Assembly (NCBI RefSeq): GCF_019431455.1
Contig: NZ_JAHYSR010000003.1
Span: 62,001 to 126,000 of the forward strand
Source of the DNA: Paracoccus bogoriensis
GTDB taxonomy: Bacteria; Pseudomonadota; Alphaproteobacteria; Rhodobacterales; Rhodobacteraceae
DNA length: 64,000 nucleotides
Direction: 5' to 3'
A model generated the notes under the pieces. It ran no database searches. It was not told the origin of the DNA and worked only from the letters and a program-made list of their open reading frames with translations. The translations under genes and the position numbers were made by a program. Below are positions 48,267-53,910 of the stretch, one piece after another; the first letter of the stretch is position 1, and each line of letters opens with the position of its first letter.

Positions 48267-50831
48267 CTACAGCGTGCGTTCAACCTCTTCACGCTCGAAG
48301 ATCTCGATGACATCGCCTTGACGGATATCGTCGTAGTTTTCGAAGGCCATGCCGCATTCCTGCCCGGATTGCACTTCCTTGACCTCATCCTTGAAGCGCT
48401 TGAGCGTCTTCAGCGTGCCTTCGTGGATCACCACGTTGTCGCGCAGCAGACGCACGCCCGCCGAGCGGCGTGCGACGCCCTCGGTGACAAGGCAGCCGGC
48501 GACCTTGCCGACGCCCGTGACCTTGAAAACCTCGCGGATCTGGGCATAGCCGATGAAGTTCTCGCGAACCTCGGCAGACAAAAGGCCCGACGCAGCGGCT
48601 TTGATGTCATCGACCAGATCGTAGATGATCGAGTAATAGCGGATCTCGACACCCTTCTGATTGGCAGAATTCCGGGCCGGCGCGTTGGCCCGCACGTTGA
48701 AGCCGATGACGGGGGCCTTGCTGGCCTCGGCCAGACCGATATCGGATTCGGTGATCGCGCCCACGCCGTAGTGAAGGACACGCACACGCACCTCGTCGTT
48801 GCCAACCTTCTCCAGCGCCTGGACGATCGCTTCGGCCGAGCCCTGCACGTCGGCCTTGACGACCACCGGCAGTTCCGCGACGTTCTGATCCGCCTTGGCC
48901 TTCGCCATCAGCTGCTCCAGCGTCGTGGCCGCGCCGGCGGCTGCGCGCCTGTCCTTGGCCTGCTGAATACGGAATGCGGCGATTTCGCGGGCCTGCGCCT
49001 CGGTCTCGACCACGTTCAGCACGTCCCCAGCCTCAGGAGTGCCGTTCAGGCCCAGCACCTCGACAGGCATGGACGGGCCGGCCTCTTCGACGCGCGCGCC
49101 CTGGTCGTTGATCAGCGCACGGACCTTGCCCCACTGCTCGCCCACGACAAAGATATCGCCACGGCGCAGGGTGCCATGCTGGACCAGAACCGTGGCAACA
49201 GGACCGCGGCCGACGTCAAGTTTCGCCTCGATCACGGCACCTTGTGCGGCGCGGTTGGGGTTCGCCTTGAGTTCCAGGATCTCGGCCTGAAGCGCGATGG
49301 CTTCCAGCAGGTTGTCGAGGCCCTGGCCGGTCTTGGCCGAAACTTCGACATCCTGCACATCGCCCGACATCGATTCGACGACCACTTCGTGCTGGAGCAG
49401 GTCGGTGCGGACCTTTTGCGGATCGGCGGTCGGCTTGTCGATCTTGTTGATTGCCACGATCATCGGGACGCCGGCGGCCTTGGCATGGTTGATCGCCTCG
49501 ACCGTCTGCGGCATCACTGCGTCGTCGGCGGCCACGACCAGCACGACAATATCCGTCACCTGGGCGCCCCGCGCACGCATCGAGGTAAAGGCCGCGTGGC
49601 CCGGTGTATCGAGGAAGCAAAGCACAGCGCCGCTTTCGGTCGTCACCTGATAGGCGCCGATATGCTGGGTGATCCCGCCAGCCTCGCCGGCCACCACGTT
49701 CGCGTTGCGGATCGCATCCAGAAGCGAGGTCTTCCCGTGGTCAACATGGCCCATGATCGTGATGATCGGCGGCCGCGGGCGCAGATCCTCGGGCTTGTCC
49801 TCGACGCTGTCGATGACCTGCTCGACATCGCTGTCGCTGACGCGCACGGCGCGGTGGCCGAATTCCTCGATTACCAATTCGGCGGTATCGGCGTCGATCG
49901 CCTGGTTCATGGACACCATCATGCCCATCTTCATCAGCGCCTTGACCACGTCGGCGGCGCGTTCGGCCATCCGGTTGGCCAGTTCCGACACCACAATGGT
50001 TTCGGGCAGCTGGACATCGCGCACCTGCTTTTCGATGCGCTGGCTGCCGCCCATCGCCTTTTGACGGGCCTTGTCCTGCTTGCGTTTCATGGCGGCAAGC
50101 GATCGCTGGCGCCCGCCCTCGCTGTCAAGCGCCTGCGTGAGGGACAGCTTGCCGGTGCGGCGGTTGTCGTCACGGGCGGCCTTGCCTCGGTCGCGTTCCG
50201 AGGCGCGTTCCACTCGGTCGCGTTCGGGCTTGCGCGGCGCGCCGGTTGCCACGCCCTTGATTTCGGCACGCGAAGCGGCGGCCTCGATGGCAGCCTGATC
50301 GGGGGCGGCGGGCTTCGCATCCGAGACCGCGGGCTTCGCGCGCGGCTCGGCCTTGCGCCTGGCGGCTTCTTCGGCCTCGCGCGCGGCGCGAGCCTCTGCC
50401 TCGGCCTTGGCTTTCAGGGCTTCCTCGCGCTCGCGCTCTTCGCGGGCCTTGGCCTCGATCTCGGCGCGGCGGCGCTCACGCTCTTCCTCGCGCGCCTTTT
50501 CTTCGGCGGCGCGTCTGGCGGCATCCTCGGCCTCGCGGGCCTTGGCGGCGGCCAGCGCCTTGAGGCGGCGCTCCATCTCGGCATCCGAGATACCGGCAGG
50601 GCGTTTCGACGGATCGCCAGCCATCCGGGCGGTCAGCGGGTTCTTTTCCTTCTGCGCGTCGGTCATCTGCGTGGCGCCCGCCTTGGGCACCACGACGCGC
50701 TTGCGCTTGGTTTCGACGACCACGCTCTTGGTGCGGCCATGGCTGAAGCTTTGCTTGACCTGGCCGGAACGGCCGCTGCCGCCAAGCCCCAGGGTCTTTT
50801 TACCGTCGTTATCGCTCATCTGCGTATTCAT
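48267..50831 (-). CDS. infB: Translation initiation factor IF-2
   Basis: The GTPase placing initiator tRNA on the 30S subunit. The 854-residue protein has a long N-terminal region very rich in Ala, Glu and Arg (about 85-190, coiled-coil-like), then the G domain with [27 protein letters not shown] and NKIDKP, and domains II-IV. The start overlaps the ylxR stop (ATGA). AAGGA directly abuts ATG 50831, so MSDND at 50819 is a possible true start. No rbfA or truB follows. Confidence 0.97.
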
Positions 50832-51474: not shown

Positions 51475-53154
51475 TCAGGCCCCGGCCTCCTCTTCGTCGG
51501 TTTCGCCATCTTCCTCGGCATCGGCTTCAAGCTCGGTGGGATCGACCCAGCCCAGCAGCACACGTGCCGTCATCACCATTGTCTGTGCCTCTTCCAGGCT
51601 GACGCCGAAGGGCTCCAGCAGGCCTTCGTCCTTGACGCGCTGGCCGTTCACCGTGGTCCAGCCGCCCGCCAGTTCCCAATCGGCGCAGGTGGCAAAGTCT
51701 TCCAGCGTCTTGATGCCGTCCTTGGCCAGTGCCTCGACCATCTGGGGCGTCAGGCCCTCGAATTCAATGAGACTGTCCTCGGCGCCAAGCGCGCGGGCAT
51801 TGTCCAGAGCAGCCTTGTTCCGGGCTTCGAGCACGTCGCGGGCACGGGCCTGAAGCTCTTCGGCGGTGCTTTCATCCACACCTTCGATCGCCAGCAGCTC
51901 GTCCATTTCGACATAGGCGACTTCTTCCAGATCGGTAAAGCCTTCGGCCACCAGAAGCTGGGCGAAGAACTCGTCCAGATCCAGCGCTTCCATGAACAGG
52001 GCCGTGCGGGTGTTGAACTCGGCCTGACGGCGCTTGGATTCTTCTTCTTCGGTCAGAATGTCGATGTCCAGACCGGTCAGCTGGCTGGCCAGGCGCACGT
52101 TCTGACCGCGGCGGCCGATGGCAAGGCTCAGCTGCCCCTCGGGGACCACGACCTCGATCTTGCCTGCCTCCTCGTCAAAGACGACCTTGCTGACCTCGGC
52201 CGGTTGCAGCGCGTTCACAAGGAAGGTCGCCTGATCCTCATTCCAGGGGATGATGTCGATCTTTTCGCCCTGGAGTTCGCCCACCACCGCCTGGACGCGG
52301 CTGCCGCGCATCCCCACGCAGGCGCCGACCGGGTCGATCGAGTTATCATAGCTGATGACGGCAATCTTGGCGCGACTGCCCGGATCGCGGGCCACGGCCT
52401 TGATCTCGATGACACCGTCATAGATTTCGGGCACTTCCATCTTGAACAATTCGGCCATGAATTGCGGGTCGGTGCGCGACAGGAATATCTGGGGGCCGCG
52501 GTTCTCGCGGCGCACGTCCTTGACATAGGCGCGGATGCGGTCGTTCGGGCGATAGCTTTCGCGGCCGATCTTTTCGTTGCGGCGCAGGATCGCCTCGCCC
52601 CGGCCCACATCGACGATGATATTGCCGTATTCCTCGCGCTTGACGACACCGTTGATGATGGTGCCGACGCGGTCCTTGAATTCCTCGTATTGGCGATCAC
52701 GCTCGGCCTCGCGGACGCGCTGCAGGATCACCTGCTTGGCCGATTGTGCGGCGATGCGGCCCAGATCGACCGGAGGCACCTGCTCCTGGAACACGTCGCC
52801 GACCTGCGGACCACCGGCGAAATCGGTGACGGCCTGACCGCCGCGCATCCAGACCGAGCGGCCATCCCTGGACGGCTCGAAGTAAGGCTTGGCCTGATCG
52901 ACCGTGAACTCGGCCTGGTAATTTTCCAGCGATTCTTCCTCGACCACGGTGCGGGCGCGGGTGAAGGTGGCGTTGCCGGTCTTGCGGTCGATGCGGACGC
53001 GAATGTCCATCTCGGAGCCATAGCGGGACTTGGCGGCGCGGGCCAGGCTGTCCTCCATCGCCTCGATGACCAATTCGGGGTCGATCATCTTCTCGCGAGC
53101 AACGGCCTCGGCCGTCTGAAGCAGTTCAAGCTGGTTGGCAGAGGTGATCGCCAT
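51475..53154 (-). CDS. nusA: Transcription factor NusA
   Basis: Binds RNA polymerase and governs pausing, termination and antitermination. The 559-residue protein has the N-terminal polymerase-binding domain, an S1 domain (about 135-200, [20 protein letters not shown]), KH domains ([15 protein letters not shown]), and C-terminal acidic HhH repeats ([19 protein letters not shown]). I chose ATG 53154 with AAGGAG nine bases upstream; GTG 53160 has only three bases of spacing. The rimP stop is seven bases upstream. Confidence 0.97.
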
Positions 53155-53160
53155 CGCCAC

Positions 53161-53778
53161 TCACTCCTTGGTCTCGGCGTTCTCGGCGCCGTCATTGTCA
53201 TCGGTTTCGATCGCGTCAAAGGCCGATTCGTCGAGATTCTCGATCTCGATTCCGGCTTCTTTCTTCTGACGCAGCATTTCGCGGATCAATTCGTCGGTCA
53301 GCACCAGCTTGGCATCGGCCAGAAGGTCGAAGTTCAGCCCGATCGTGTGTTCCTCGCCGTTCTCGGTGATGTTCAGCAGGACTTCCTCGCCCTCGACGCC
53401 CGCCAGGACGCCCTTGAAGCGCTTGCGCCCGTCGATCGGCTGGTTCAGGTCCAGCCGGGCCTCGTAACCCTCGAACGTGGCGAAATCCTTGAGGCGCGTC
53501 AGCGGCCGGTCGATGCCGGGGCTGGACACTTCAAGGTGGTAATTGTCCTCGATCGGATCCTCGACATCCAGCGTGGCGCTGACCATCGTGGAAATCTCGG
53601 CGCAGTCATCGACATTGATCCCGCCTTCGGGCCGGTCCACCATGATCTGCAACGTCGCCGCCTTTCCGCCCTGAAGGCGCAGGCGGACCAGTTCGTAGCC
53701 CATATCCTCGATCACTGGGGCGACAATCTCGGCCAGGCGCCGGTCGATGGCGGTCTTGGCGATCAGGTCATATGACAT
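53161..53778 (-). CDS. rimP: Ribosome maturation factor RimP
   Basis: Needed for 30S subunit maturation. The 205-residue protein starts [19 protein letters not shown] and has [16 protein letters not shown]-like [18 protein letters not shown] and [15 protein letters not shown]. The C-terminal extension is acidic, as in alphaproteobacterial members. AGAGGACCCC precedes the ATG. A terminator-like hairpin lies only 19 bases before the start, within the leader. It heads the nusA-infB operon. Confidence 0.95.
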
Positions 53779-53796: not shown

Positions 53797-53866
53797 AAAA
53801 AGGGGCCTTCAGCGGAGGCCCCATGCGGAAGATCCGGTGGGCAGGGTGTGGACCCCTGCACCGCTG
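53797..53866 (-). promoter_or_regulatory. Attenuator-like leader of the rimP-nusA-infB operon
   Basis: On the minus strand an intrinsic terminator shape (GGGGCCT, seven-base loop, AGGCCCC, then TTTTT; 53822 to 53797) ends 18 bases before the rimP ATG. An upstream hairpin (53854-53859 with 53841-53846, extended by 53860-53863 with 53835-53838) precedes it. CAGCGG in the leader (53861-53866) is complementary to CCGCTG in the terminator loop (53810-53815). No promoter fits between hairpin and ATG, so operon transcripts must cross it. It could also simply end the pip-tspO transcript. Confidence 0.6.
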
Positions 53867-53910
53867 TTGACGCTATCCTTAGCGCAAGGCCGCGCAAAAG
53901 GCAAGCCGCA

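Follow-up and report, generated by a model that had tools for sequence, protein, structure and literature searches.

We identified, in front of the rimP-nusA-infB operon of Paracoccus bogoriensis, a leader that we consider fairly likely to be a transcription attenuator, lying in the 5' untranslated region (5' UTR) of the operon and acting as a kinetic switch linked to NusA. The window, i.e., the whole stretch of 64,000 nucleotides that was analyzed, carries the operon on the minus strand. Its first gene is rimP (53161..53778, with the ATG at 53778; RimP_N family match), followed by nusA (51475..53160), coding for the proposed effector and target, and further down by infB (48267..50831), the last two being identified from the translated ORFs. 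Upstream of rimP and its Shine-Dalgarno-like AGAGGA (53788-53783), on the same strand, is an intrinsic terminator hairpin, GGGGCCU-CCGCUGA-AGGCCCC (53802..53822), composed of the arms GGGGCCT (53822-53816) and AGGCCCC (53808-53802) and the loop CCGCTGA (53815-53809). A UUUUU tract (53797..53801) follows, leaving 18 nt to the rimP ATG. A sequence-only reading of this DNA had described the hairpin, the T-run, this distance and the complementarity between CAGCGG and CCGCTG, and the coordinates were confirmed on the minus strand. A consensus scan returned one terminator-like site against 1.5 expected, which is not beyond chance; the hairpin stands out because it is conserved across relatives.

The same reading had placed no promoter between the hairpin and the rimP ATG, and none was found there. 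It overlooked a promoter just upstream of the leader. In relatives, a conserved promoter, CTTGCA-N17-CTATAT, is found 5' of the hairpin; therefore, the whole terminator is placed in the 5' UTR of rimP-nusA-infB, and operon transcripts must cross it, as had been proposed. Of 312 distinct upstream regions, 280 had the pattern CTTG-N19..21-TATA, compared with a mean of 0.2 in mononucleotide shuffles, and in nearly all, the -10 box ended 5 to 6 nt ahead of the C of CAACAG. The corresponding -35 box of the window is TTGCCT (53899..53904, minus strand), 6 nt past the tspO stop and aligned with CTTGCA of the relatives. It is separated by 17 nt from a weak -10 box, TAAGGA (53876..53881), where most relatives have CTATAT; CTAAGGA is shared with L031, the closest relative. 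A sigma70 consensus scan of the window did not detect this promoter because the -10 box is weak in P. bogoriensis, so that the promoter is visible only through comparison. Based on the alignment with relatives, the leader is predicted to start near 53868, with AACAGCGG as the 5' end of the transcript (53861..53868, at a spacing of 6 to 8 nt from the -10 box) and CAGCGG inside the first ~8 nt.

RimP was found in 288 of 298 genomes of the family and in 120 of 121 genomes of the same genus, and upstream regions were taken for a large share of them. Nearly all of these regions displayed the same order: CTTGCA, 17 nt, CTATAT, about 6 nt, TCAACAGCGGYGC, a hairpin and GCYCCACCGG, then a short linker, ACGGGCC...GGCCCGUUUUU and finally rimP. 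In an alignment of 107 leaders, ACAGCGG and GGG...CCC were near-invariant. In the window's genome, a covariance model built from the leader alignment (R1) gave a single strong match (E = 1.9e-11), which lies at rimP, the runner-up having E = 1.26. R1 matched each of the 149 genomes sampled from the order, all of them members of one family, with E values down to 7.7e-23. Across the class, 37 of 289 genomes had matches, including 4 from the window's own family, and six matches outside this family were directly upstream of rimP (L209, L211, L215, L216, L227, and L231). At L209 (G645), which belongs to another family of the class, CAGCGG was present close to the predicted start, and the loop of the rimP terminator contained CCGCUG. 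A blind pattern scan was run on a collection of about 85,000 genomes (genome_contigs), and the matches listed were Rhodobacteraceae-type records and MAGs. Among these, rimP was located 80 to 163 nt downstream in 79 of 79 assessable loci, one further locus ending before the gene, and the upstream gene was oppositely oriented in 31 of 79 by a crude longest-ORF criterion. Of 36 rimP upstream regions from outside the order, most had a hairpin of the GGGC/GCCC type, the terminator of the published rimP-leader, with a T-run; the exceptions were a few AT-rich regions (e.g., L241, L242, L258, and L261). The terminator motif is thus class-wide, and the 5' part is found chiefly in Rhodobacterales. Most alphaproteobacterial rimP leaders from outside the order (e.g., L243, L254, and L260) carry GUGGGCC...GGCCCAC followed by a U-tract. 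The GUG/CAC on either side seems to be conserved, and a class-wide family of the Rfam type could be defined from it.

From the predicted start to the U-tract, the leader measures about 72 nt. Its first hairpin, P2 (GCAGGG-GUCCACA-CCCUGC, 53841..53859, minus strand), showed strong co-variation, with two-sided changes at 8 of 8 consensus pairs, and a variable loop without a universal binding motif. The alignment also revealed a conserved CCACCGG immediately 3' of P2 (53834..53840). In the terminator, the outer pair varied in step, and the core GGG/CCC was nearly invariant (alignments A1 and A2). The shuffles used for these structures ignore shared descent; slid controls, which retain it, scored far below the actual structure. 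On the basis of these comparisons, we have high confidence that the predicted promoter, leader and terminator are real. Other folds were examined and not retained. P1, in which the CGG of the 5' end could pair with the CCG within CCACCGG (53837-53835) as an anti-antiterminator, is possible and showed no co-variation: it was either invariant or broken, its fourth pair (U11:A48) failing in 85 of 104 rows, and it varies too little to be judged. Between CCACCGG and the terminator, a linker hairpin was weak and variable. Folding the window leader as far as the ATG also gave a CAUGGGG:CCCCAUG pairing (53826-53777, minus strand), in which the 5' arm of the terminator, through CAUGGG(G), meets (C)CCCAUG at the rimP start; the start codon of read-through RNA could be hidden in this way. 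We dropped its occlusion from the claim because 6 bp or more could be formed in just 14 of the 89 leaders of the genus, the window and 13 others, and compensatory changes were not seen.

The second pairing of the leader connects its 5' end (CAGCGG, 53866-53861, within a nearly invariant ACAGCGG) to the loop of the terminator (CCGCUG, 53810..53815), both on the minus strand. Since indels in the loop misregister a column-based count, we used an alignment-free comparison, in which the first ~11 nt of each leader were paired either with the apex of its own terminator or with those of other leaders. The mean duplex energy was -11.13 kcal/mol with the own apex and -10.58 kcal/mol (standard deviation, 0.10) with shuffled ones, better than all 2,000 shuffles; these statistics ignore kinship, and the independent co-changes number only about three to four. 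In the 11 leaders without GCGG, the own pairing reached -8.55, compared with -5.70 in the background, and 0 of 5,000 draws were as good. Relative to a shuffled 5' segment, the mean pairing length was 5.57 versus 3.38 bp in the genus and 4.94 versus 3.40 bp in the rest of the family. Lack of co-variation between 53810-53815 and 53861-53866 in relatives had been set beforehand as a refuting test by the sequence-only reading, and co-variation was present: CAGAGG:CCUCUG occurred twice, once in L013/L314 and once in L084, at distant positions on a tree of RimP and NusA, and ACAGG:CCUGU was found once, in L025. L023, close to L084 on this tree, has CAGCGG:CCGCUG. The own pairings of L013 and L084 beat every background loop, and for L025, L266, L302 and L284, 3.8%, 2.8%, 5.7% and 6.6% of the background loops, respectively, matched the own pairing. 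The misfits fell into one clade, L088 and L315 having just 3 bp and L100 and L285 pairing better with typical loops than with their own. This clade (L069, L095, L100, L285, L293, L302, L304, L088, L315, and L284) has a rewired leader, with a weak or shifted antiterminator pairing, UACCG in place of CCACCG, terminator loops of the UGUU type and a possible CAACAG:CUGUUG pairing. In the secondary-structure model, the antiterminator excludes the terminator; this mutual exclusion is not certain in the window because the CCGCUG segment sits in the loop. Our confidence that the 5' end acts as an antiterminator is moderate.

The order in which the two structures could form was analyzed with minimum-energy folds of successive prefixes. 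The 5'-end pairing appeared at about 57 to 66 nt and gave way to the terminator once the 3' arm had been made. Forcing the antiterminator cost a mean of 4.2 kcal/mol over 228 leaders and 5.7 kcal/mol in the window; alternative full-length folds were near in energy for L084 and, at the far 3' end, for L013. Being an equilibrium calculation on prefixes, with neither polymerase nor NusA, this analysis demonstrates a possible order of events rather than an actual one. In the mechanism that we propose, the promoter just past tspO would start the RNA near 53868, and the first nucleotides would be followed by P2 and then by the intrinsic terminator. When the RNA is ~60 nt long, the 5'-terminal CAGCGG may pair with CCGCUG in the emerging 5' arm and loop of the terminator, forming an antiterminator that would enclose P2. 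Upon emergence of the 3' arm, the more stable terminator could displace it. The outcome would probably be kinetic. With a slow or paused polymerase, when NusA is present, hairpin formation at the U-tract would be favored by NusA and the transcript would end at ~72 nt; with NusA scarce, fast escape would keep the antiterminator in place and let the polymerase enter rimP-nusA-infB. In this scheme, the promoter, P2, the terminator and the co-variation of the 5' end with the loop come from comparison, the folding order comes only from the energy calculation, and the start site, termination and read-through are predictions.

One genome, G247, carries a second complete promoter and leader between rimP and nusA (locus L021, 1346-1423, minus strand), with nusA as the next gene. 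This copy is well preserved (82 bits; E = 6.3e-20), and the copy at rimP is decayed (54 bits). The presence of an additional copy right in front of nusA, in better condition than the one at rimP, points to nusA as the target, and if nusA is what the leader serves, relocation would give this picture; G247 is the one sampled genome of its genus, and the nusA-proximal copy was seen in this genome only. A simple duplication with drift is an alternative. We regard NusA as the effector or sensor at about even chances, or slightly in its favor, by analogy; it is favored because of the precedent in other bacteria, the G247 copy and the invariant GGGC...GCCC core.

Several known systems resemble this leader. 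The rimP-leader (Naville and Gautheret, 2010; Rfam RF01770; PMC2965389) was proposed as the most widespread attenuator of bacteria. The sequence-only reading was thus right that a rimP leader attenuator had been proposed and too narrow in limiting it to Pseudomonas. As in that motif, GGGc(...)gCCC and a T-run lie between a promoter and rimP, upstream of rimP-nusA-infB, and control by NusA has been proposed (PMC2965389, which cites repression of the operon by NusA in Escherichia coli). The published motif has no larger conserved element and a visible antiterminator only in some Gammaproteobacteria (PMC2965389), in contrast to the ~72-nt leader described here, with P2, CCACCGG and a co-varying 5'-terminal antiterminator. 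A search with RF01770 failed to match the window up to E = 1 or its genome up to E = 10, and the 47-bit cutoff was reached in none of 20 relatives; Rfam scans of the window and seven loci gave no credible match. Because the motif is present in the window (GGGGCCU/AGGCCCC-UUUUU, within the 5' UTR from the predicted promoter), yet a larger conserved element is present too and RF01770 is unmatched, we class the Rhodobacterales leader as a lineage-specific form of the rimP-leader/NusA attenuators already known. A literature search found no paper on the Rhodobacterales version of the rimP leader. NusA-autoregulated leaders likewise have a terminator between the operon promoter, predicted here, and the first gene. 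In Bacillus subtilis, autoregulation of NusA through a terminator in the 5' leader has been reported (PMC12288461, a recent review), i.e., the same operon, an intrinsic terminator in the leader and a proposed negative feedback by NusA. In the part of the Streptococcus agalactiae study available to us (PMC4448216), a short and a long RNA of gbs0413-gbs0418 arise from one start, a terminator soon after the start precedes rimP-nusA-infB, and autoregulation of NusA through it is proposed; there, unlike here, termination occurs 31 nt past the start, and that part mentions no extra hairpin or antiterminator. Transcripts of the E. coli metY-rimP-nusA-infB operon must also cross terminators (t1/t2) upstream of rimP, and NusA regulates that operon, but its leader differs in having the metY tRNA gene, several promoters and RNase III sites (PMC6511841). 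By analogy with these systems, NusA may well limit its own production through the Rhodobacterales leader.

Other explanations were weighed against the NusA-linked switch. It is rather unlikely that the terminator is tuned by NusA without any switch, NusA-stimulated termination alone setting the read-through as in B. subtilis and the 5'-end pairing being a minor stabilizer, e.g., a contact between the loop and the 5' end in the finished short RNA. Evidence against it comes from the clean compensatory changes of L013/L314 and L084 and from relatives with 4-nt loops, in which a 6-bp pairing cannot coexist with the stem. In its favor, coexistence could occur in the window, where CCGCUG is wholly inside the 7-nt loop; one clade has a weak or rewired pairing, the GGGC...GCCC core is invariant class-wide and the 5' pairing is not, and a precedent without an antiterminator exists. 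The mechanism in the original report on the B. subtilis nusA leader reportedly did not rely on an antiterminator. The Rhodobacterales leader differs from that leader by conserving an antiterminator-type pairing, and its dependence on NusA is proposed by analogy. The same attenuator could instead respond, via P2 and CCACCGG, to RimP, the 30S subunit or a ribosomal protein, growth rate or cold. We find this unlikely: the loop of P2 varies and offers no universal binding motif, and the extra copy in G247 precedes nusA, downstream of rimP, even though CCACCGG and ACAGCGG are conserved beyond the needs of pairing and RimP feedback has been named as possible (PMC2965389).

The ~72-nt terminated product, with its own promoter, compact fold and strong terminator, could also be mainly a trans-acting small RNA, the operon being fed by read-through. 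This seems improbable given that the leader is always attached to rimP or nusA, among the matches listed and in G247, that the co-variation is in cis, and that the available main text of a Paracoccus small RNA paper does not mention rimP, nusA or infB. The simpler possibility kept by the sequence-only reading, a plain terminator for pip-tspO, fits the common strand and the position of the hairpin, 89 nt past the tspO stop in the window. It has become highly improbable: a promoter is predicted between tspO and the hairpin, and among the matches listed, tspO was present in 10 of 80 leader-carrying loci and not found in the other 70, with rimP at the distance given above in all 79 assessable ones.

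The rimP-nusA-infB operon is the source of essential transcription and translation factors, and proposals of NusA feedback have so far come mostly from Bacillus, Streptococcus and E. coli. The leader described here offers a defined and testable case for a large group that includes Rhodobacter, Paracoccus and marine bacteria of the Roseobacter type. It adds a proposed antiterminator made of the extreme 5' end of the transcript, with natural compensatory variants that can stand in for engineered mutants. A further natural copy of the leader, located at nusA, points to the regulated gene. It is possible, rather than probable, that the attenuator operates throughout the Rhodobacterales, the first ~8 nt serving as the antiterminator and NusA or polymerase speed being read as a race between the 5'-end pairing and the terminator; the choice of the start nucleotide could then also tune it.
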